This document shows, one piece after another, positions 43,899 to 54,140 of a DNA stretch of 64,000 bases. The first letter of the stretch is position 1. Each line of letters opens with the position of its first letter. This DNA comes from Lentibacillus sp. Marseille-P4043. GTDB lineage: Bacteria > Bacillota > Bacilli > Bacillales > Amphibacillaceae. Under the pieces are notes generated by a model. The model was not told the origin of the DNA, made no database searches, and was given only the letters and a program-made list of their open reading frames with translations. A program made the position numbers and the translations under genes. The stretch spans positions 2,849,696-2,913,695 of the forward strand of contig NZ_LT984884.1 in NCBI RefSeq assembly GCF_900258515.1, read 5' to 3'.

Positions 43899-45944
43899 TT
43901 AAAATAAGAAATATCGTTCGGACAGTGGTATCGTTACTGCAGGAGGTTTTTCAATTGGTTCGCCATCAACGTATACTTGGAAGCTATCCGGGTCAACAGT
44001 TATCAGTGGCAATGTATTGTTTAGTATCATATCTTTTTTCCCGATGTTTCTTGTGTTTCGTACTGCATAAATTTTTTTCTCCAATCCTAACTTTTCTGGA
44101 ACGCCCGCTTCCACAGCAGCCTTAGACATAAATGTAAAAGATACACTTTTAGGTGCTTTCCCAAAAGCCGCCCACATTGGTCTATACATTACCGGTTCAA
44201 CAGTTGCTACCGGACCATCGGCCATTCCTTCTGCAGCCGCAGCAATAAAACCACCCTTGATCACCTTTTCGGGTTTTGCTCCGAAAAATTCTGGTTTCCA
44301 TAATACGAGGTCAGCCATTTTGCCAACTTCAATAGATCCAACTACCTCTGAAATACCCTGTATGATGGCTGGATTTATTGTGTATTTGGCTATATACCTT
44401 TTTGCACGAAAGTTATCATTTTCCCCTGTTTCTTCAGGCAATCGACCACGCTGCTGTTTCATGACATGGGCGGTCTGCCAGGTCCGCATAATAACCTCAC
44501 CAATATGGCCCATTCCTTCACTATCAGATGCAATACAACTAATTGCACCGATATCCTGCAGAAATCCTTCTGCTGCCATTGTTTGCGGACGAATTCGTGC
44601 CTCAGCCATAGCAACTCCTGTTGGGTCATCTCGGCTAACATGATGAACCTGAAACAACATTTGAATGTTTGCAGCTGGTGTATTGATTGTATACGGACGA
44701 GTTGGTGTTGTGGAAGATGGCAAAATATATTCTTCTCTGGAAACTTTTATTATATCTGGTGAATGTCCTCCACCAGCACCTTCCGTATGATACGTATGAA
44801 TCGTTCTTCCTTTAATCGCTTGTAATGTCGTTGTTTCAACAGTTCCGGACTCATTACTGGAATCAGTATGAATACAAACTTGAACATCATATTTATCTGC
44901 AACTGTTAAACAACAGTCAATAACTGCTGGCGTCGCTCCCCAATCTTCATGAACCTTTAATCCGGCTGCACCGGCCTTAATCTGTTCCTCAATTGGTTGC
45001 GGAAAGGAGGCATTACCACGACCCCAAAAACCAAAATTCATCGGAAAATTTTCTACTGCCTCAAGCATCCGATGAACATACCATGCACCAGGTGAAATAT
45101 TTGTTCCGATCGAGCCTTCTGTCGGACCAGTTCCCCCACCAAGCATAGTCGTAATACCAGAGTCAAGGGCTGTTTTTACAAGCTGTGGCTGCACCTCGTG
45201 GACATGACTATCGATACCGCCCGCCGTAACAATCCTATTTTCTCCGGATATTACCTCGGTGGATGGTCCAACGATTAAATCGGGATCAACACCATCCATA
45301 TAATCCGGATTCCCCGCTTTACCAATTCCATGGATTTTACCGTCCTTGATACCAATATCCGCTTTAATAATACCCCAATAATCGATAATAAGTGCATTTG
45401 TAATTACAAAATCAGGCGCTATTTCATCAGTTACGTATGGGTTCATGCCCATACCGTCACGGATTGTTTTCAACCACCCATACCGGAGCTCATCACCATA
45501 AACAGTGTAATCTCGTTCCACCTCTACGATGATATCTGTATCAGCTAACCGCACCTTGTCGCCGGTTGTAGGTCCAAACTTCTTTACATAATGTTTTCGT
45601 GATACATATTTATCACTTGTATGTGAAGTTACAACATCGTCTACAGGTCCATTTACATACCCCCTAAAACCAAAAACATTCTTTCTGCCGCCAATTTCAA
45701 CAAGTTCAACCGTTTTTTTCTCACCCGGCGGAAATTGAACGATTTCTCCGGCACCAATATTCAAGCGCATCCCCTTTGCTAACTCCCTGTCAAAAAACAA
45801 ATCCGGGTTGACCTCATAAAAATGGTAATGTGATCCTACAAAAAGTGGTCGATCCCCTTTGTTAACGACCATAATTTTTCGAGTATTTCTTCCGTGGTTA
45901 ATCGGTATTGGATCTTTTTTCAAAAAGTATTCTCCTGGTTTCAA
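43899..45944 (-). CDS. ureBC: Urease beta-alpha fusion (UreB-UreC)
   Basis: A single 681-residue protein: UreB (about residues 1-105, [10 protein letters not shown] start, GHRYHF-like [19 protein letters not shown]) joined by a roughly 12-residue linker to UreC (from [20 protein letters not shown]). The nickel ligands and catalytic residues are kept: HVH in [11 protein letters not shown], the carbamylated Lys in [31 protein letters not shown], and Asp in ASDSEGMG. The mobile flap, normally MVCHHLD, reads FQVHHVS, so the flap Cys is Val while both His remain. The frame across the junction has no stop. Start chosen at TTG 45944 with AAGGGGGGAG upstream. UreB and UreC are normally separate genes. 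Confidence 0.9.
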
Positions 45945-45988
45945 CCGGTACACTCCCCCCTTATACCTATTGTCTTACAAATAAACTA

Positions 45989-46517: not shown

Positions 46518-46889
46518 ATGATATACCATCCCTTTTATGGTGTAGTGGCACCCCCCTATCAACAGCCGTATTCGGAAAAACTGTATGATGATGCCAGATA
46601 TGTAAAGAAGCATATCCATTCGCTTATGGGAACGACCTCAATAGAATTAGATCATACCCATCAGTATATTGAAACAACAGGACCAGCACCAAACGGGATC
46701 CAACATACACATGAATACTCAGGATGGACAAATTTTGATGATAAGCAACGGCATAAAATCAGCGGCAGAACGGGGCCAGCTATCCCGCTTCAGGATGGTG
46801 GACATATTCATTATTACGAAGGATTTACAACGGGTTACCCGAATCATCAGCATTGGTATCAAGGATTTACGACGCCATCAAATGAGTAA
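46518..46889 (+). CDS. ymaF: YmaF-family His-rich repeat protein
   Basis: A 123-residue protein with three related His/Tyr-rich repeats (DHTHQYIETTGPAPNGIQHT, HTHEYSGWTN, GGHIHYYEGFTTGYPNHQHW). It matches the YmaF family of Bacillus; role unknown, metal binding is possible. GAAAGGAG precedes the ATG at 46518. CATATGATA about 40 bp upstream fits a sigma-K -10, but no AC lies at the right distance. Divergent from ureA. Confidence 0.8.
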   Translation: MIYHPFYGVVAPPYQQPYSEKLYDDARYVKKHIHSLMGTTSIELDHTHQYIETTGPAPNGIQHTHEYSGWTNFDDKQRHKISGRTGPAIPLQDGGHIHYYEGFTTGYPNHQHWYQGFTTPSNE

Positions 46890-46962: not shown

Positions 46963-47304
46963 TTAATTTTTTTGTTTGTGTTTAAAATTTTTATTTATCG
47001 CCTTTTTTGCCTTTTTGTTATGACCTTTCATTGATTTATGCTTGCTTTGTTTTTTATTCCTATTGATAACGAGGTCTTCTGCTTCGTCTGCAATCTTCTT
47101 CGCATTATTGTTATTCATCACTGAAAAATCCTTCTCGTCCTCATCAAGGATAACATTGACATTGTCCGAAACGTGATTTCCACTTACATTCGTGTTACCT
47201 TTGGAAAAATAGGACCAATTTGGTGCATAGTTATTACCAATAAAAACTCCTGATTGATTTTTAGCTGTATTGACCTTTATTTTTTCTATGTTAATAGTTA
47301 TCAA
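46963..47304 (-). CDS. Core-motif spore protein paralogue 1 (GerPA/PF-like, basic tail)
   Basis: A 113-residue protein. The N-terminal strand is followed by the cluster core SGVFIGNNYAPNWSYFSKGN (residues about 18-37), then NVNVILDEDEKDF and a Lys/His/Asn-rich tail of about 50 residues (KKQSKHKSMKGHNKKAKK). No signal peptide. It starts with TTG after GAAGGAGGAAATTTG. It lies 24 bp after paralogue 2, in one operon. The tail is unlike the paralogues and could bind nucleic acid or polyanions; function is inferred from the group only. Confidence 0.75.
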   Translation of the reverse strand: MITINIEKIKVNTAKNQSGVFIGNNYAPNWSYFSKGNTNVSGNHVSDNVNVILDEDEKDFSVMNNNNAKKIADEAEDLVINRNKKQSKHKSMKGHNKKAKKAINKNFKHKQKN

Positions 47305-47328
47305 AACAAATTTCCTCCTTCCTTTTTA

Positions 47329-47556
47329 CTAAACCCTATTACTTGTTCTACCTAAAAAATCGATGTGATCCCTGTCATCAATTACATTAAGCGAATTGGA
47401 AACATAATTACCAACCAATTTTGATGTTTGATAGACTACATTTCTGTTGCGTTTAGAGTGGGCTGTCCAATTAATAATGTTGTTTCTGCCATTGAAAACC
47501 CCAACACGATTAGACGAAGAATCAATTTGTGTGTGTTTAGCTGTTATTTCGATCAT
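47329..47556 (-). CDS. Core-motif spore protein paralogue 2
   Basis: A 75-residue protein: strand IEITAKHTQID, core VGVFNGRNNIINWTAHSKRN (about residues 18-37), then GNYVSNSLNVIDDRDHIDF, matching the common plan. Good site AAAGGAGCCGGATAA. CATACACTA at 47618-47626 (minus strand) fits the -10 of sigma-E or sigma-K promoters, although no AC lies 16-17 bp before it. Confidence 0.75.
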   Translation of the reverse strand: MIEITAKHTQIDSSSNRVGVFNGRNNIINWTAHSKRNRNVVYQTSKLVGNYVSNSLNVIDDRDHIDFLGRTSNRV

Positions 47557-47750
47557 TTATCCGGCTCCTTTCCTAAGCACTTGTCCATAATTTTAGAAAG
47601 GTAAATTGTTTTGCTATTAGTGTATGTTAGGAAAACATGAGCGAAATAGACCATCAACTATCAATTATTAAAATAGACAAACGTCATTTACCTCCACATT
47701 ATTCAATGAGGCCCTACATTTACCATACATTTTATGCACTAAAATAAAGC

Positions 47751-47780
47751 TTTAGGGATACTTTGTACATATCCCTAAAA
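47751..47780 (-). terminator. Terminator at the end of the coiled-coil gene
   Basis: Stem TTTAGGGATA / TATCCCTAAA with a 9-nt loop, overlapping the stop codon of the gene at 47775. It would separate that gene from paralogues 2 and 1. Confidence 0.6.
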
Positions 47781-48548
47781 AGTAGATACGAGAACCCAAT
47801 ATCCAGTTGATGATCTAGATAGTTGACGTTTTTTTGTATCGTTTTTTCCTTTTATCTTATGATTATCAAATACTGGGATTCTTTTAGGGATGGAGGGATT
47901 GTTATTCGATTGATTTGATACGTATGTAGGTATTGGGTACTTTGATTGGTAATTTTCTGCAGTAATCTCTGATTGCTGAAAATTAGGCTGTTCTTCTTTT
48001 GCTAACACATCATATACTGTTTCCCCTTTTTTCATTTGATCACTACTTTCGATATCATCTTTGTTCCTAGTCGGGCTCGTTAGTTCTGGGGCCCTATTAT
48101 CAACTGATTTTTTATCAGGTGGAGACTGCTGTTCATGTTGATTCGAATCTTTAGGGAATAATTCTTTCAATTTTTCTTCAATCTGCTTTTCAATCTTGGG
48201 GAATTTGGTTCTGTGTTCCTTTTCCAAATCTTTATGTGAAGAAGTAGAATCCTTGCTTTCTTCTATCGACGATGTTTTTGATTTCATTTTTGCTTCGACT
48301 GGTTGCTTACTTTTGGTTGCTTTTGTCCCATCGACAGGAACACCCAAGTTAACTCCTAAATTTAAAGCACCACTAACTTCATCAACATCGATATCACCGA
48401 CTTTGTATTCCATTAGTGGTCCTTTCAAATCAAGTTGTTCAATGTTTACAATAGAAGCCCCATTGTTAATTATGACTTTTTTAAGTAATGTCTCTATTTT
48501 TTCCATCTTGTCACAAAGTTTTTCTATTTTTTCATTGTAATCATCCAT
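47775..48548 (-). CDS. Coiled-coil protein of the spore cluster
   Basis: A 257-residue protein: an N-terminal heptad helix (EKIEKLCDKMEKIETLLKKV, residues 6-25), a beta-like segment (ASIVNIEQLDLKGPLMEYKV, then GDIDVDEVSGALNLGVNLG), a long charged, low-complexity middle rich in Lys, Ser and Glu (about 75-180) and a terminal SSTGYWVLVSTF. The coiled-coil plus beta plan recalls GerPC, but I do not claim homology. It lies 53 bp after paralogue 3 on the same strand. ATG after AAAGGGGATACCA. Confidence 0.72.
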   Translation of the reverse strand: MDDYNEKIEKLCDKMEKIETLLKKVIINNGASIVNIEQLDLKGPLMEYKVGDIDVDEVSGALNLGVNLGVPVDGTKATKSKQPVEAKMKSKTSSIEESKDSTSSHKDLEKEHRTKFPKIEKQIEEKLKELFPKDSNQHEQQSPPDKKSVDNRAPELTSPTRNKDDIESSDQMKKGETVYDVLAKEEQPNFQQSEITAENYQSKYPIPTYVSNQSNNNPSIPKRIPVFDNHKIKGKNDTKKRQLSRSSTGYWVLVSTF

Positions 48549-48601
48549 TGGTATCCCCTTTCTTGATCAAGGATATTTTCCGGACTGTCTCTATTTTTCC
48601 T

Positions 48602-49090
48602 TTACGTTGGTGGGATCGTACCCCACATGGTATCACGATCATCAATTGGGGTATCTACTTGATCATTATCAAATACTACATTTGTGTTCTTATTCGCTTT
48701 ATTATTGTGTCCACCGATCTTGCCAAAACCTGTATTTGACTTACTCTGGGAACTCCAGCCAAATTGTACATTTTTACCGTTAAATACCCCGGAAGAGCTT
48801 GAGACTGTACCAACACTTAACTTATTAAAGCTAATCATTGCGTTTTGTTTTTTTTGTGACTGTTTCTTTTTTTGCTGCTCACCTTGTTTGTTTTTGGCCT
48901 TTTGTGAACTTTGCTTCATTTGTTCCTCAGAGGATTTTTCTTTTTGTACTTTTTGTGGAGATGGGTTCTGTTGTCCGCTTTGCCCTAAATGCATAGGGTT
49001 AACAGTTTGGTAAGGTAAATGACTCATATTGGGTGGTAATGGGTTATATGGGAAATATGGATACTCATGATACGGGTTGTATGCATTCAT
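48602..49090 (-). CDS. Core-motif spore protein paralogue 3 (Pro/Tyr N-terminus)
   Basis: A 162-residue protein. Residues 1-40 are Pro/Tyr/His/Asn-rich (NPYHEYPYFPYNPLPPNM), 45-85 Lys/Gln/Ser-rich, then the core domain: ISFNKLSVGTVSS, SSGVFNGKNVQFGWSSQSKS, GFGKIGGHNN and DNDQVDTPIDDRD. The N-terminus resembles coat proteins that become cross-linked; that is inference. First gene of the minus-strand operon, behind a sigma-K-like promoter. ATG at 49090; a GTG at 49105 is inside the ribosome site. Confidence 0.78.
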   Translation of the reverse strand: MNAYNPYHEYPYFPYNPLPPNMSHLPYQTVNPMHLGQSGQQNPSPQKVQKEKSSEEQMKQSSQKAKNKQGEQQKKKQSQKKQNAMISFNKLSVGTVSSSSGVFNGKNVQFGWSSQSKSNTGFGKIGGHNNKANKNTNVVFDNDQVDTPIDDRDTMWGTIPPT

Positions 49091-49127
49091 AAATAAATCC
49101 AGCACCTTTCAGCCTGTTATTCAAAGA

Positions 49128-49154
49128 TAGCTTATGTTAAATAACATTTTATGT
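49128..49154 (-). promoter_or_regulatory. Sigma-K-like promoter, leftward
   Basis: Minus strand: AC (49154-49153), 16 bp, CATAAGCTA (49136-49128). It drives the gene starting at 49090. It is divergent from the similar promoter at 49178-49204. Confidence 0.6.
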
Positions 49155-49177
49155 ACGAAGTCTATTGTGTCCGAATC

Positions 49178-49204
49178 ACTTCGCCTATCTTCACGCATAA
49201 ACTA
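49178..49204 (+). promoter_or_regulatory. Sigma-K-like promoter, rightward
   Basis: AC (49178-49179), 16 bp, CATAAACTA (49196-49204) preceded by G, an excellent sigma-K match. It lies 31 bp before the ATG at 49235. Confidence 0.62.
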
Positions 49205-49234
49205 TCCTAATTTATGAAAAAGGAGTCCGATTCA

Positions 49235-49486
49235 ATGGAAAACCCTGCATTTTCTGATATTGAAATTCGTTATGATACCATTCACATCACTTCTGCAGCA
49301 AGTGGAGCAGGTGTCTTTAATGGAGTGAATACGCAATTTGGCTGGAGTTCTCATAGTAAAACAAATTCCGCATTAGGTACGATTGGTGGTCACCTTAACC
49401 ACACCCCAAACAATATAAATGTTCTCAATGATAACGATATGATTGATACCACCATTAACGATCAGGACGTCATGTGGGGTCTTTAA
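49235..49486 (+). CDS. Core-motif spore protein paralogue 4
   Basis: An 83-residue protein that is almost only the core domain: IEIRYDTIHITSAAS, AGVFNGVNTQFGWSSHSKTN, LGTIGGHLN, then NVLNDNDMIDTTINDQDVMW. It is close to paralogue 3 over this domain. AAAAAGGAG precedes the ATG at 49235; an ATG at 49214 overlaps that site. First gene of the plus-strand set. Confidence 0.8.
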   Translation: MENPAFSDIEIRYDTIHITSAASGAGVFNGVNTQFGWSSHSKTNSALGTIGGHLNHTPNNINVLNDNDMIDTTINDQDVMWGL

Positions 49487-49573
49487 AATCTTCTATTTAA
49501 CTCTTGTTCTGTTTCACAACATATTGCTGTTGGAATAAACTATCGTACTAAACGAGAAAGTGAGGATGAACAA

Positions 49574-49819
49574 ATGGCACTAAAAATAATTTATAATACG
49601 AATTTACTAAATACAGCCCTTGATAACGCGGGTGTATTTAATGGAGAGAACCAAGGTTTTGGTTGGAACTCCCATTTTAAACAAAACCAAAATGCTAACC
49701 TTACCGGATTTTTTAACCCATCAACAGGTAATGTAAATATTTTACGGGATAATGATGGTTTCGATGCGACCATTAATGACCAGGATGCAGCAGCAGGTGT
49801 CATTGGACAATCATTTTAA
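49574..49819 (+). CDS. Core-motif spore protein paralogue 5
   Basis: An 81-residue protein: LKIIYNTNLLNTALDN, AGVFNGENQGFGWNSHFKQN, NVNILRDNDGFDATINDQD. It pairs closely with paralogue 6 (FK replaces SK in the core). Site GTGAGGATG. Upstream, AC, 16 bp and AATAAACTA is one base off the sigma-K -10, so it may have its own promoter. The next gene begins 28 bp later. Confidence 0.8.
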   Translation: MALKIIYNTNLLNTALDNAGVFNGENQGFGWNSHFKQNQNANLTGFFNPSTGNVNILRDNDGFDATINDQDAAAGVIGQSF

Positions 49820-49847
49820 ACAAAAAATTGATTAATGGAGGGTCATC

Positions 49848-50093
49848 ATGGCGATTGTAATTGCTTATAATATGAATCACCTGCAATATGCTGCCGACAA
49901 TTCAGGTGTACTAAATGGACAAAATCAAATATTTGGCTGGAATTCTCATTTTAAAATGAACCAAAATTATTATGTTAAAGGAACGGGTATTCCAACTAGT
50001 GCTAATTTTAACTTTATAGAAGATATGGATGGAATTGATACTACTATCAATGACCAAGATACTGAATGGGGAGCAAGTTTCCAATCAGTTTAG
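49848..50093 (+). CDS. Core-motif spore protein paralogue 6
   Basis: An 81-residue protein, the same length as paralogue 5: IVIAYNMNHLQYAADN, SGVLNGQNQIFGWNSHFKMN, NFIEDMDGIDTTINDQDTEW. A tandem duplicate of the preceding gene. ATG after TGGAGGGTCATC; a terminator follows. Confidence 0.8.
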   Translation: MAIVIAYNMNHLQYAADNSGVLNGQNQIFGWNSHFKMNQNYYVKGTGIPTSANFNFIEDMDGIDTTINDQDTEWGASFQSV

Positions 50094-50098
50094 TACAA

Positions 50099-50138
50099 AC
50101 AATGCGATCCGGTATCAAAGCCGGATCGTATTTTATTC
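50099..50138 (+). terminator. Terminator after paralogue 6
   Basis: Stem ATGCGATCCGG / CCGGATCGTAT with an 8-nt loop, then TTTATT. Confidence 0.85.
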
Positions 50139-50170
50139 TAATCCACCCTACAATTGTTTTCGATAAAAAT

Positions 50171-50218
50171 AAAGAGTTGACCAATTATCACTCTAACGGG
50201 TTCTCTTTAGAGGTGCAA
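50171..50218 (+). repeat. Left 48-bp inverted repeat of the 0.93-kb segment
   Basis: Matches the reverse complement of 51054-51101: AAAGAGTTG (9/9), a diverged 15-bp centre, AACGGGTTCTCTTTA (15/15), then a partly conserved 9-bp end (GAGGTGCAA against AGGTTGCAA). Arms are equal in length. The interval has no convincing gene. Confidence 0.7.
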
Positions 50219-50351
50219 ACAAGAGAAAAACATCTCAAATCACAGAAAAATTTACAACAAAAACATCAGGGCAATTCACAGTAGTATTAACTTCTAATAT
50301 TTGTTGGTGATAGAAAATTTATTGGGAGATTTCTGGTTTTGCTACAAATGG

Positions 50352-50781
50352 CCGCTCCAGAAAAACACTGCGCTTTCCGTGGGCGGCTGATGAGCCTCCT
50401 CGTGCTGGGTGCTCGTCGCGTTGCAAGTAACTCGGTGAAGTATCGCTCCTTGCAACTCGAAGCTTATTCGTTGGGAGTAATGCTCGTCGCACTGCGGGGT
50501 CTCACCTAGGCCTCTTCTCCCACAGGAGTCTCCGTGTTTTTCTTCCGCTGGATAGCAATCAGGGACAACAATTTTAAGTTAGATAATCTTAACTAGCGTA
50601 GGCAGAATACGTAGACTCCTGCGGGAACAGCACGTGTCCGAAGACCCCGCAGAGTGATTTGAAAAGGAAGGTCGACTAAAACCGTCCTTTGCGGACAACG
50701 TCGACATACCCCTCGCCGGGGCAAGGAGGCTGAGGCCGTGCCCGCGGAAAGCGAAGTATTCTGCCGAAGCGGTTTTCCAGC
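50352..50781. repeat. GC-rich intergenic repeat element, two facing copies
   Basis: Two GC-rich blocks in opposite orientation: 50352-50556 (with CTTTCCGTGGGCGGCTGATG, GCGGGGTCTCAC and CACAGGAGTCTCCGTG) and 50597-50781 (with GTAGACTCCTGCGGGAACAG, AAGACCCCGCAG, GAGGCTGAGGCCGTGCCCGC and GGAAAGCG). The shared words are reverse complements, so the DNA can fold into a long hairpin. I recall similar intergenic repeats in Bacillaceae genomes. Base composition is clearly richer in G+C than the flanks. Confidence 0.65.
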
Positions 50782-50888
50782 ACTAAATTAAGCGAGGATG
50801 TGAGAGTCAATAATATAAAGTTTATGTCATCCACAATCGGAACCGAGCCTTTTTGATTTCCACTTGTAAAATAACTGGTAGTTTATCA

Positions 50889-50938
50889 AATAACTTTAGC
50901 AGAGTGAGAATATCTATTCCCACTCTGCTAAAGTTATT
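50889..50938. repeat. Long hairpin without a T run
   Basis: AATAACTTTAGCAGAGTG pairs with CACTCTGCTAAAGTTATT over 18 bp, extended by inner G-C pairs; the loop is about 8-12 nt. Neither strand carries the T run of a terminator. Confidence 0.7.
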
Positions 50939-51053
50939 GCTATTTATCATGCTATTTTAACCAACAAATAGCCAAATGCATTGATATAACTACAAAAATA
51001 AGGGTGCGATACTGTATGTGATTTTGCACCCCATTTATATTGTTATTTGTTGT

Positions 51054-51101
51054 TTTGCAACCTTAAAGAGAACCCGTTAATTATCACGCTAGCCAACTCT
51101 T
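51054..51101 (-). repeat. Right 48-bp inverted repeat of the 0.93-kb segment
   Basis: Partner of 50171-50218 (see there). It ends 23 bp before the stop of the GerT-like gene. Confidence 0.7.
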
Positions 51102-51124
51102 TACACTTTTCTTCATGGGTGATT

Positions 51125-51661
51125 TTACCATTCTTCGTCTTCCTCATTTAATTCAGTAATGTCAAATTCCGATAAAGGCTCAGGTGGTTGCTTCATCATT
51201 TGAATTTCAAGAATATCATTACGAGTCGTTATTTTTGTCTTTTTTGGGTCAACTGGTTTAGGCAAATGTATTCGTAGTGAAGGTCGCTGCCCCTTTTCTC
51301 TTAAAAAAAGCTCATGACTATTAAGTAAAACACTAAACCGTTGTTCTGGATTAGCATTTGTCATAGCTATTCTTGCAATGACAAAATCATGTGTCTCGAA
51401 TACATTATACTCATAATTTGATGCGTTACCATTTCCGGGTGATCCATTAGATTGACGGTTAGGTCTGTTTCTTCGTCGATGTTGGGAAGGATTGGGAACG
51501 TTTTGCAAATTATTGGGTTCAGAAACGTTAGCTTGATTCGGAACTGCATTCTTTATTTGATCAGAGATGAATTGAGCAAAAGCCTCTTTATCAAAGGGAT
51601 TGGGAACATTCTCTTGGGTATCGAAATGCTGATTGAAAAAATCTTCGAAAGCTTTTTCCAT
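51125..51661 (-). CDS. Alpha-crystallin-like spore protein (GerT/Hsp20-like)
   Basis: A 178-residue protein: helical N-terminus (MEKAFEDFFNQHFDTQ), an Asn/Pro/Arg-rich linker (about 45-85), then a beta-rich alpha-crystallin-type domain (NVFETHDFVIARIAM, RFSVLLNSHELFLR, LRIHLPKPV, LEIQMMK) and an acidic tail. The VFETHD opening matches the GerT/YocM-type small heat-shock relatives found in spores. ATG after AAGGAGTGTCCTTTC. Upstream on its strand AC, 16 bp, AATAGAATA is one base from a sigma-K match. Confidence 0.75.
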   Translation of the reverse strand: MEKAFEDFFNQHFDTQENVPNPFDKEAFAQFISDQIKNAVPNQANVSEPNNLQNVPNPSQHRRRNRPNRQSNGSPGNGNASNYEYNVFETHDFVIARIAMTNANPEQRFSVLLNSHELFLREKGQRPSLRIHLPKPVDPKKTKITTRNDILEIQMMKQPPEPLSEFDITELNEEDEEW

Positions 51662-51774
51662 GAAAGGACACTCCTTTAGAAATGAATCGACGTTCTTGCA
51701 AACTTTAAAATTATTCTATTCTTTGCAGTAGAAAAAGTACCTAGGAAACAAAGGACCAGTATTTTAGAACTTTC

Positions 51775-51801
51775 ACACTCCGCGAATGCCTACATAAAAT
51801 A
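51775..51801 (+). promoter_or_regulatory. Sigma-K-like promoter of paralogue 7
   Basis: AC (51775-51776), 16 bp, CATAAAATA (51793-51801), about 52 bp before the TTG start at 51853. Confidence 0.58.
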
Positions 51802-51852
51802 TCGAAGGCTAGATGGTTAAAAGTTATTTTACCCTACTGGAGGTTTCTTAAA

Positions 51853-52062
51853 TTGAAGGTAAATTTTGAGGATTTAAAGATTGATCATGTGTCACTTTCA
51901 TCAGGTATATTTTCAGGTGAGAACCAACAAGTTGATTGGAACTTTGTAAGCAAGGTGAATGAGGGTTTTGGTACGATAAGTGGGAGCAATAATGATTCTT
52001 TCAATAATCATCATGTGGTTCGAAAACGTGTTGACAAAAATGATTGTGGAAAGGAAGCATAA
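51853..52062 (+). CDS. Core-motif spore protein paralogue 7
   Basis: A 69-residue protein: FEDLKIDHVSLS, core SGIFSGENQQVDWNFVSKVN, GFGTISGSNND, and a basic end. It lacks the late DxDxID part kept in paralogues 3-6. Starts with TTG after ACTGGAGGTTTCTTAAA. The next gene starts 3 bp after its stop, so the two form an operon. Confidence 0.75.
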   Translation: MKVNFEDLKIDHVSLSSGIFSGENQQVDWNFVSKVNEGFGTISGSNNDSFNNHHVVRKRVDKNDCGKEA

Positions 52063-52065
52063 AAT

Positions 52066-52428
52066 ATGAGATCCGATTTAACTCCAAATTTTTTTATAAA
52101 AAATATTAACATTCATACCGTTGAAGGAGCATCTTGTGTTAACTTCGGAATAAATGAACCAACAGGGTTTACAAATCATAAAAAGCATAACCAGGGATTT
52201 GGATCGGTTAGTGGGGATTCAAATACAATTGATGGAATAAAAACGCTCATGAATGACAAATCGCTAATTGATATGTTATCTGACACTGGCACAGATGATC
52301 TATCTGAAATCCGAGAGCTCATTACCTCTAAAGTCATTGCATATTTAGAAGAAGAGAAATTTGACGAAATGAATGAAGAAATTGATGAAATGGAGACAGG
52401 AGAAATGAACGAAAACACAAGCGTTTAA
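52066..52428 (+). CDS. Core-motif spore protein paralogue 8 (acidic tail)
   Basis: A 120-residue protein: FFIKNINIHTVEGA, diverged core SCVNFGINEPTGFTNHKKHN (Phe in place of Trp), GFGSVSGDSNT, then a helical Glu-rich tail (DLSEIRELITSKVIAYLEEE, about 85-104). The VNFG wording is the one nearest to GerPA/GerPF proteins. ATG after GGAAAGGAAGC. Confidence 0.75.
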   Translation: MRSDLTPNFFIKNINIHTVEGASCVNFGINEPTGFTNHKKHNQGFGSVSGDSNTIDGIKTLMNDKSLIDMLSDTGTDDLSEIRELITSKVIAYLEEEKFDEMNEEIDEMETGEMNENTSV

Positions 52429-52431
52429 AAT

Positions 52432-52581
52432 CTAATGAATCAAATAACAGGATCTAAGCTCCGGATGGTTTTTGATGTCGAAAGTGGCGGCCGCATCCAT
52501 TTTCCCGAACTCTTTTTCATCTGTTTGCAAACCTAAACCACCTCTGGGGCCACAAAAGAGTTTATCTCTCTTCCTATCTTT
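52432..52581 (-). other. Open frame without start (possible gene remnant)
   Basis: A 49-codon minus-strand frame reading KLFCGPRGGLGLQTDEKEFG then KMDAAATFDIKNHPELRSC before a stop. It looks protein-like and contains a NotI site, but has neither start codon nor ribosome site. It overlaps the end of the ATPase gene. It may be the C-terminal stump of a lost gene; I cannot name it. Confidence 0.25.
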
Positions 52582-53185
52582 CTATTAAGGTATTGAAATT
52601 TATGATGCGATCACTTATCCTGTGTAACAAATGCTGATCATGACTAATTGCGAGTACACCAATATTACGCTGTTTTACAAGTTGCAGGACAGCTTGCCAT
52701 ATTTGCGCCTGGGTAATCGCATCAAGCATCGTCGTCATTTCGTCCGCAATGAGATAGTTTGTATTAAAACCAAGTGCACGAACAAGACTGAATCGTTGTA
52801 ACTCACCACCAGAGAGTTCACTAGGCCAGCGATTTAACCACTCTTTCTGAATGCCTAATGTACCTAGTAAGTCACTATCAGAAGTACCACCAACTTCAGC
52901 AAGCACCTTTCTCATTTTCCACCTTGGATTAATAACCTTTTCTGGATGCTGCCAAACCAATTGAACAGGATGTACCCCCTTTATAGGATAAGGACGTCCG
53001 TCTGCTGTTACGTGTCCTTCCAATGGATTGAGATAGCCAGCAATAATCCTTGCCATCGTGGTTTTTCCGGAGCCGCTCATACCATACAACCCAACCACTT
53101 CACCCGGTTTCATTTTCATGCGTAGATTTCGAAACAGCCATTGACGACCTTTGTAACGATAACTAATCCCATTTATTTCAAGCAT
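52574..53185 (-). CDS. Nickel/peptide-type ABC ATPase (second, NikE/OppF-like)
   Basis: A 203-residue ATPase: Walker A GMSGSGKTTMARI, signature ELSGGELQRFSLVRAL, Walker B YLIADEMTTMLDAI. It lacks the C-terminal oligo-HPY region, so it is shorter than OppF. I chose the ATG at 53185 (MLEINGISYRY), which overlaps the preceding gene by 8 bp; the open frame runs further upstream through that gene. Last gene of the importer operon. Confidence 0.87.
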   Translation of the reverse strand: MLEINGISYRYKGRQWLFRNLRMKMKPGEVVGLYGMSGSGKTTMARIIAGYLNPLEGHVTADGRPYPIKGVHPVQLVWQHPEKVINPRWKMRKVLAEVGGTSDSDLLGTLGIQKEWLNRWPSELSGGELQRFSLVRALGFNTNYLIADEMTTMLDAITQAQIWQAVLQLVKQRNIGVLAISHDQHLLHRISDRIINFNTLIER

Positions 53186-54140
53186 GAAAACACTTAACCA
53201 TTCCACCGGCAACGTTTGTATCTTTCGGCTGTTCATTCGCACACTTTTCCATGGCAATTGGGCACCTCGATGCAAAAGTACATCCGGAAAAGCTCTCTCC
53301 CACAGACGGTTGAGATCCTACTAATGGAAAAAAGTCATTTTGAGGCAATGCGTTCCATAAAGCCTTTGTATATGGGTGTCGCAACTTCTCACCTTTACCA
53401 GAAAAATCTCCTGCATTTGCAATTTCAACCGTTTGACCCGCATAAAACACCGCAATTTTATCTGCTATTTTTAGTGCTGTATGTATATCATGGGTAATCA
53501 ACAAAATCCCTTTTCCATCTTTAGCAAGCTGCTTCAGGGAATTTATTGTTTCCTGAAGTGTGAGTTCATCTAATCCAGGTGTTGGTTCATCAGCAATTAT
53601 GAAGTTTGCTTCACTTATTATAGCCGTTGAGACTAAAACCCTTCGTGCCATTCCCCCCGACAGTTCAAATGGATATCGATTCCCCGTTTTAAGAGGAAGG
53701 CCCACCTTATCAAAAGCGTCTTGTTGGATTGCTTTTCTGTCTTTTCCCCTTACGACTGTTTGTACCTGTTTACCAGCTTTTATTAATGGATCGAGTGCAT
53801 TAACGGACTGTGGAACGAGTGATATTTCTTTTCCGCGTAAGGTGATTAGTTTTTTTTGATTCAATGGTTCACCCTTATAAATTAGTGTTCCATTTAAAGT
53901 AGCGTTTTCTGGTAAAATACCTAAAATCGCATTAGCCAACAAACTCTTACCAGAACCACTAGCCCCAACAACTGCAAGAATCTTACCAGCGTTTATCGTT
54001 AAATTTAGATTGTTAACAACCTGCACGATCGATTCACGTAACCAATTCCGATAGGTACGGAAGGAAATAGATAGGTCTTTCACTTCAAATAATGGAGTAT
54101 TATCATTTTTTAGTTTGTGATGTTTCAAAGTCATCATCAT
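53178..54140 (-). CDS. Nickel/peptide-type ABC ATPase (first, NikD/OppD-like)
   Basis: A 320-residue ATPase: Walker A GASGSGKSLLANAI, signature ELSGGMARRVLVSTAI, Walker B FIIADEPTPGLDEL. A C-terminal oligo-HPY domain with CTFASRCPIAMEKC follows. It pairs with the shorter ATPase to drive the two permeases. Three successive ATGs exist; the first is given, the second or third has better spacing to GGGAG. Confidence 0.88.
   Translation of the reverse strand: MMMTLKHHKLKNDNTPLFEVKDLSISFRTYRNWLRESIVQVVNNLNLTINAGKILAVVGASGSGKSLLANAILGILPENATLNGTLIYKGEPLNQKKLITLRGKEISLVPQSVNALDPLIKAGKQVQTVVRGKDRKAIQQDAFDKVGLPLKTGNRYPFELSGGMARRVLVSTAIISEANFIIADEPTPGLDELTLQETINSLKQLAKDGKGILLITHDIHTALKIADKIAVFYAGQTVEIANAGDFSGKGEKLRHPYTKALWNALPQNDFFPLVGSQPSVGESFSGCTFASRCPIAMEKCANEQPKDTNVAGGMVKCFHA

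Follow-up and report, generated by a model that had tools for sequence, protein, structure and literature searches.

A second, GerP-type spore-coat locus as the probable nature of a cluster of eight small paralogues in Lentibacillus sp. Marseille-P4043

GerP proteins are located in the inner spore coat, where they are believed to provide channels for germinants; when they are lost, germination on nutrients is impaired, with no defect of the coat to be seen (PMC11841064). In Bacillus anthracis, the gerP operon is under the control of sigma-K, and deletion of the full operon results in a germination defect that is gone once the coat is removed; two gerPF paralogues outside the operon overlap with it in function, and spores without gerP germinate late, for which the authors suggest an additional entry point (available part of PMC2817736). 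Here we describe a cluster of ten open reading frames (ORFs) within a 64-kb stretch of the genome of Lentibacillus sp. Marseille-P4043 (contig NZ_LT984884.1), the whole of this stretch being called the window. We favour an interpretation where the cluster forms a second spore-coat locus of the GerP type, existing besides the canonical gerP operon and probably aiding the passage of small molecules through the coat, and would assign this a probability of roughly 0.6.

Like the gerPABCDEF operon (PF10676, PF10803, PF10737, PF10970), the cluster combines several small proteins of one superfamily with one coiled-coil protein of the GerPC type, and both have sigma-K-type promoters as well as homology at the profile level. 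The cluster differs from the operon in that the match of its GerPC-like protein to GerPC is limited to the N-terminal part, in that it adds an alpha-crystallin-like gene, and in its division into several short units running in both directions, of different composition from the one six-gene operon. Also unlike the operon, the cluster type includes core proteins with two domains in tandem in some genomes. By description only, the cluster can be likened to gerPF2 and gerPF3 of B. anthracis, which are GerPF-type genes outside the gerP operon with a share in the same function (PMC2817736). The parts are of a known kind (GerP); the locus itself is not the gerP operon, and its members stay under the Pfam cut-offs for GerP.

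The cluster is additional to canonical gerP, as the genome has a canonical operon elsewhere (L009 2808-4779), with gerPA, gerPB, gerPC, gerPE and gerPF above the Pfam cut-offs. The GerPF of this genome is 93% identical to that of Virgibacillus dakarensis. A 57-aa ORF between gerPC and gerPE is taken by us to be gerPD, from its position and size only, and two further GerPA-like genes, above the cut-off of PF10676, occur at L009 9377-9905, adjoining an ORF that is presumably addA. Canonical GerPB and GerPE give sub-threshold matches to the gerPA model, so that a spread-out superfamily is the rule. No match to GerPB at E up to 1e-6 occurs in the window and the homologous loci examined. Matches to the GerPD and GerPE models there are few and all on core genes, and these counts are not evidence, the underlying sets (117 and 109 rows) having evidently absorbed relatives. 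In one genome (G031, L197), a canonical gerP gene set is found about 7 kb from a GerP-type cluster on the same contig.

The cluster is flanked by a YmaF-family gene (46518-46889, plus strand) and an ABC-transporter gene (52574-53275, minus strand), and comprises eight small paralogues, a 257-aa coiled-coil protein and a 178-aa alpha-crystallin-like protein. ORFs are named by start coordinates (46966 is 46963..47304, and 48605 is 48602..49105). E values for core proteins refer to a core model whose 200 domains were all drawn from other genomes, the window being excluded.

46963..47304, minus strand: core protein 46966, 113 aa, TTG start preceded by GGAGGA, basic C-terminal tail; second gene of its unit; core model E 1.7e-14
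47329..47556, minus strand: core protein, 75 aa; first gene of its unit; core model E 6.3e-10
47775..48548, minus strand: GerPC-like protein, 257 aa, a coiled coil and then a ...DIDVDEVSGALNLG... hairpin; from PF10737 and hhalign
48602..49105, minus strand: core protein 48605, 167 aa, Pro/Tyr-rich head and basic linker before the core domain; core model E 3.5e-26
49214..49486, plus strand: core protein, 90 aa; core model E 3.6e-24
49574..49819, plus strand: core protein, 81 aa; core model E 5.3e-17
49848..50093, plus strand: core protein, 81 aa, with 49574 as its sister (55% identity; also aligned in pairwise BLASTP); core model E 3.6e-16
51125..51661, minus strand: small alpha-crystallin/CS-like protein, 178 aa; CS and Hsp20 signals, both under cut-off
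51853..52062, plus strand: core protein, 69 aa, TTG start; first gene of a two-gene unit; core model E 8.5e-19
52066..52428, plus strand: core protein, 120 aa, VEGASCVN type, acidic tail; core model E 1.8e-24; PF10676 E 0.067

The eight small ORFs lie, all intact, where a preceding sequence-only reading had placed them, and its claim that they share one core holds: among 556 stop-to-stop ORFs of at least 40 residues in the window, the outside-only model selects exactly these eight (E 3.5e-26 to 6.3e-10), with no further ORF up to E = 10. Pairwise BLASTP, run with the low-complexity filter and the composition correction off, aligned 27 of the 28 core pairs (E 1.1e-29 to 0.043), the pair 46966/52066 being the only one without an alignment. 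In a MAFFT alignment the common domain covers about 60-80 residues. The residues named in that reading as shared (Gly6, Asn8, Trp/Phe13, Lys18 and Asn20) appear as an invariant G, N, K and N, with a W in seven of the eight and an F in 52066, and most copies have the acidic DxDxID...D end. Its extra modules (a basic tail in 46966, a Pro/Tyr head in 48605, an acidic tail in 52066) were recovered too, some copies carrying low-complexity heads and tails, as were the interspersed coiled-coil gene (47775-48548, minus strand) and alpha-crystallin-like gene (51125-51661, minus strand). Two starts are probably misplaced: for 49214, ATG 49235 (83 aa, AAGGAG just upstream) is the more probable one, and for 49105, called with a GTG, ATG 49090 (162 aa) is more probable.

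Profile comparisons support the view that the core domain of the eight is distantly homologous to GerPA/GerPF, and it is as such that the likeness noted earlier is to be understood. We used a narrow profile of the window's eight (A1), a core-family profile (A5) and a broadened family profile (A9), which is free of any canonical gerP-operon protein and one row of which, P0045, itself carries PF10676. Compared by hhalign with canonical GerPA/PF, A5 reached a probability of 79 and a score of 34.5 over 76 columns, an alignment that spans the whole domain including the DxD...D end, whereas the controls scored 11.9 or less (20 column shuffles) and 13.9 (reversed profile). A9 matches the canonical gerPA of the same genome (E 2.6e-6), a GerPA-like gene near addA (E 1.2e-4), and 45 of 62 collected GerPA/GerPF-type sequences, but none of the 62 when reversed. 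PF10676 is matched individually by 11 of 30 family members at E <=0.01 (best 2.1e-5), and no other Pfam family is matched by these 30. Some relatives carry PF10676 in precomputed database annotation (e.g. P0032, P0045, P0121), and a few (P0025, P0076, P0144) bear the source name "spore germination protein", while most of the related small proteins among the matches listed are nameless or "hypothetical". NCBIfam gave only scattered single matches on 37 family members; its silence is uninformative on GerP, because the six canonical GerP proteins of the same genome go unnamed by it as well. A sequence search for a solved structure of a core relative found none.

The coiled-coil protein of the cluster is a relative of GerPC, which both confirms and refines what had been seen before. 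On its own it matches PF10737 with E 0.0014 and 19.1 bits, under the gathering cut-off of 22.4 bits, and 3 of the 20 GerPC-like proteins in our alignment (A6) match PF10737 at E <=0.01. With hhalign, A6 aligns to canonical GerPC over 52 columns (probability 96, E 2.9e-9; probability 3.8 when reversed). These columns cover the coiled coil and the following hairpin, i.e. the N-terminal part, and A6 has no hhalign match to the C-terminal half of GerPC. There are also intermediate forms: G029 (L159/L189) encodes a protein of 179 aa that reaches 64.5 bits against the GerPC model and 17.2 bits against the GerPC-like one, and proteins of 346 aa (G023) and 357 aa (G370) match the canonical GerPC model, yet adjoin core and Hsp20-like genes. 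The G029 loci represent a third kind, with two core genes, a GerPE-like gene and the intermediate GerPC protein. In Scopulibacillus daqui (L080 9454-11487) the GerPC-like protein has 677 aa and a long repetitive tail.

The ten ORFs were assigned to six putative transcription units on the basis of orientation, gaps and sequence.

49105-47775, minus strand: unit with a core gene and the GerPC-like gene
47556-46963, minus strand: unit with two core genes
49214-49486, plus strand: unit with one core gene
49574-50093, plus strand: unit with two core genes
51661-51125, minus strand: unit with the alpha-crystallin-like gene
51853-52428, plus strand: unit with two core genes

A sigma-K-like site was defined by at least 7 of the 8 bases of AC-N16-CATANNNTA within 130 nt upstream of a gene. 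Such a site, with a spacing of 16 nt, precedes all six unit leaders (three of them with 8/8 bases), four of the six sites having already been known before the units were assigned; none was found within 130 nt of the four internal genes.

47618..47644, minus strand: sigma-K-like promoter of 47556(-), 7/8 consensus bases, spacing 16
49128..49154, minus strand: sigma-K-like promoter of 49105(-), 8/8, spacing 16
49178..49204, plus strand: sigma-K-like promoter of 49214(+), 8/8, spacing 16
49516..49542, plus strand: sigma-K-like promoter of 49574(+), 7/8, spacing 16
51712..51738, minus strand: sigma-K-like promoter of 51661(-), 7/8, spacing 16
51775..51801, plus strand: sigma-K-like promoter of 51853(+), 8/8, spacing 16

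By comparison, 5 of 51 other long ORFs of the window are preceded by a site at spacing 16 (Fisher p 1.3e-5 versus the cluster), or 8 of 51 when any spacing of 15-17 is accepted, and such a site is found in 4.2% of 130-nt segments drawn at random from outside the cluster. Only position and orientation of the sites count, as the number of strict patterns in the 64 kb (8) equals that expected by chance (8.2). When leader regions of the window and of 80 homologous loci (see below) were pooled, 37 of 201 had the strict motif, against a mean of 1.6 and a maximum of 4 in 50 shuffles, and patterns of the sigma-E, sigma-G and sigma-A types were not enriched in these 201 regions. Control by sigma-K, a mark of the gerP operon, is thus indicated for the cluster at the level of sequence. 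The flanking YmaF-family gene (PF12788, E 2.9e-17) also has a 7/8 sigma-K-like site at spacing 16 and may for this reason encode a spore protein too. Two terminator-like hairpins fit the ends of units, and their number in the region is not above that in shuffles.

47750..47780, minus strand: terminator-like hairpin 3' of the GerPC-like gene, one of 4 in the region, with 3.9 expected in shuffles
50101..50132, plus strand: terminator-like hairpin 3' of 50093

Far from being confined to this genome, the gene set is a conserved locus found in many genera. Scanning named genomes gave 85 relatives of the 52066 type, the best 80 of which were kept (the 80 loci). They include Neobacillus, Lederbergia, Halobacillus, Fictibacillus, Cytobacillus, Evansella, Paenibacillus, Alicyclobacillus and Scopulibacillus, a metagenome-assembled genome (MAG) of Thermoactinomycetaceae, others, and one MAG labelled Halanaerobiales. 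A GerPC-like gene or fusion is present in 75 of the 80, all at more than 30 bits. It is followed by a core gene on the same strand in 60 loci, and the order core, GerPC-like, core on one strand occurs in 42 (labelled genes); in seven loci (L115, L122-L126, L129) the GerPC-like part is fused to a 52066-type core. The alpha-crystallin-like model matches 42 loci, a rough count as the model was built from four sequences. Core genes vary from 1 to 8 per locus, with 4 or 5 in 57 of the 80, and the window, having 8, is at the top of this range.

The class-wide sample comprised 299 genomes, 207 of them positive for SpoIVA and so likely spore formers. A5 matches 54 genomes and A6 matches 61, some weak A6 matches being perhaps canonical GerPC, and all of these are SpoIVA-positive (54/54 and 61/61, versus 207/299 overall). 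GerPC-like matches with E <1e-8 occur in 32 genomes, and among the matches listed at least 30 of the 32 have a core match no more than 3 kb from the best GerPC-like match; G204 and G235 are exceptions, again among the matches listed, and a second GerPC-like match in G235 has one. Among closer relatives, A1 matches 9 of 41 only, and A9 matches 37 of 100 genomes of the window's own family, nine of them with three or more matches; at least three single A9 matches (G002, G021, G024) are canonical gerPA. A genome of the same genus (G001) has a diverged small locus (L046) with three cores, an Hsp20-like and a GerPC-like gene.

In the MAG labelled Halanaerobiales (L085), cores are accompanied by a GerPC-like and an Hsp20-like gene, so either the locus reaches beyond the Bacillales or the label or bin is off. 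The locus reaches the B. subtilis group, as it is present in a genome labelled Bacillus tequilensis (L104 6203-8339), and a 97% identical protein (P0121) exists in Bacillus stercoris. The L104 locus presumably sits at the position of yybI; a link to YybI was dropped, since a protein search with the L104 gene gave no protein named YybI. YybI is an inner-coat protein of B. subtilis (available parts of PMC13228071 and PMC4383634).

The 178-aa protein resembles the CS domain of Pfam (E 0.021, 16.2 bits, cut-off 21.3) and the Hsp20 model of NCBIfam (E 0.0017, 18 bits, cut-off 140). In an alignment of 13 alpha-crystallin-like proteins (A10), 7 match HSP20 at E up to 0.1, the window protein not being among them; it is 47% identical to its counterpart in Lederbergia citri (L052). 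GerT and CotM are spore proteins of the Hsp20/alpha-crystallin type. By its weak CS/Hsp20-type signal, which stays under every alpha-crystallin cut-off, the window protein may be likened to them in domain type.

A tree of 382 core domains bears out the earlier description of the copies as diversified: they are old and distinct, not recent clones, as they group with separate genes of other genera. Three of them clade with genes of Neobacillus mesonae (L051) and Lederbergia citri (L052), namely 48605 (support 0.977), 51853 (0.914) and 52066 (0.951). The other five belong to a clade of ten together with five genes of Scopulibacillus darangshiensis (L053; support 0.90, some inner nodes weak), within which 49848 pairs with an L053 gene at 0.988, 46966 with another at 0.616, and 49574 has an L053 gene as its nearest tip at a node of support 0.0. 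We make no specific claim of horizontal transfer for these copies, which resemble Scopulibacillus and Neobacillus/Lederbergia genes while G001 offers nothing closer than its diverged locus, because the flanking urease and transporter proteins are likewise without a match in G001 and G002. The urease beta and alpha subunits in the window are fused into one 684-aa protein (43899-45953, minus strand), which has no match at E up to 1e-50 in these two genomes of the same genus. The middle of the cluster contains a dispersed repeat (50320-50780), with 89 matches to the whole or parts of it in the genome, itself included (E <=1e-5).

Several points weigh against a GerP-type coat locus. None of the eight proteins reaches the gathering cut-off of PF10676 (27.3 bits): the best, 52066, has 13.9 bits (E 0.067), PF10676 is absent from the Pfam matches of the remaining seven at E up to 1, and annotation of all ten cluster ORFs with Pfam and NCBIfam gave nothing above cut-off. 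Homology is supported at the level of the family, via A5 and A9. A model of canonical GerPA/PF only is at noise level in the window (best E 0.046, with an unrelated ORF at 0.035). With hhalign, the eight alone reach a probability of 10 against GerPA/PF (score 22.0, reversed 13.2), and no link is seen for the 81-aa subgroup taken by itself (11.6, reversed 11.3). AlphaFold2 gave a low-confidence model of a core protein (78 sequences; pLDDT 51.9, pTM 0.28), as it did of canonical GerPF (53 sequences; pLDDT 58.7, pTM 0.27); confidence at this level speaks neither for nor against a common fold, the lack of which the sequence-only reading had named as refuting it. As to the promoters, a 150-nt rule for units makes 49574 an internal gene, which leaves sites at 5 of 5 leaders and at 1 of 5 internal genes; of the 80 loci that have a scored leader region, counting the window, no more than 31 show the strict motif, and it occurs in antisense in 12 of the 201 regions, which is partly expected at divergent genes. 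No experiment on any family member was found in the open-licence literature, and no title or abstract that our searches there brought up describes this locus. Lastly, a part in permeability is ascribed to these putative coat proteins by analogy only: of the spore-coat/germination system proposed earlier, the kind of system is largely borne out by the GerP homology, the sigma-K-like promoters and the exclusive occurrence in SpoIVA-positive genomes of the sample, and the control of germinant access would follow from the likeness to GerP.

The main rival is a plain structural role, where the GerP-type domain has given rise to spore-surface proteins (of a coat sublayer, the crust or the exosporium) that take no part in germinant passage, the copies diversifying with adhesion or resistance. 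The evidence for sigma-K and for spore formers fits this equally well, and a lineage-specific expansion (the five copies in the Scopulibacillus clade), the range from 1 to 8 core genes per locus and the low-complexity heads and tails are in keeping with it; the patchy presence (9 of 41 relatives with A1, three or more matches in 9 of 100 family genomes with the broad profile) would suit an accessory layer. We nevertheless regard it as rather unlikely, as a GerPC-like match in 75 of 80 loci and core fusion in seven amount to a GerP-like pairing and not to a generic surface protein, and no crust or exosporium family is among the Pfam/NCBIfam matches of the eight.

Tandem amplification of a gene derived from gerP, be it selfish or neutral, that leaves most copies without function could draw on the local expansion that produced five of the eight and on the patchy presence within the family. 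It is very improbable, as all eight ORFs are intact, each transcription unit has a sigma-K-like promoter, 49574, 49848 and 46966 are each closest to a different gene of L053 (supports 0.0, 0.988 and 0.616), and 48605, 51853 and 52066 fall in with genes from Neobacillus/Lederbergia (0.91 to 0.98). Equally improbable is a short motif shared by convergence, without GerP kinship, in a separate vegetative or stress system: the failure of the canonical GerPA/PF model in the window, the weak profile-profile score of the eight alone and the low-confidence AlphaFold2 models (pLDDT 52 and 59) are outweighed by the A5 and A9 matches to GerPA/PF, the sigma-K-like promoters and the occurrence of the family only in SpoIVA-positive genomes of the class sample.

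Under the favoured interpretation of a second GerP-type coat locus, sigma-K would drive the cluster genes late in the mother cell, and the GerPC-like protein would organise several different core proteins into one coat assembly, which the alpha-crystallin-like protein may assist or join. The heads and tails, which differ between copies (48605 has Pro/Tyr and basic parts, 46966 a basic and 52066 an acidic one), could attach different subunits to distinct partners in the coat. In the way that is proposed for GerP, germinants and other small molecules would be let through the coat by this assembly; that it is most likely a second assembly of this kind is suggested by analogy with the GerP proteins of B. 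anthracis, the operon as well as its paralogues.

How germinants cross the spore coat is only partly understood, and a paralogous locus that is conserved and shares both protein types with gerP offers a concrete candidate for another way through it. Such an interpretation would give a testable role to small proteins that are mostly nameless or "hypothetical", and the fusions and intermediate forms provide handles on the assembly of GerP proteins. It is conceivable, although we propose this only tentatively, that the Bacillales possess a widespread, fast-evolving second GerP system, consisting of a GerPC-like organiser, changeable GerP-domain subunits and an alpha-crystallin-like helper, which would form a separate or tunable entry path in the coat, the repertoire of subunits setting which small molecules may pass.

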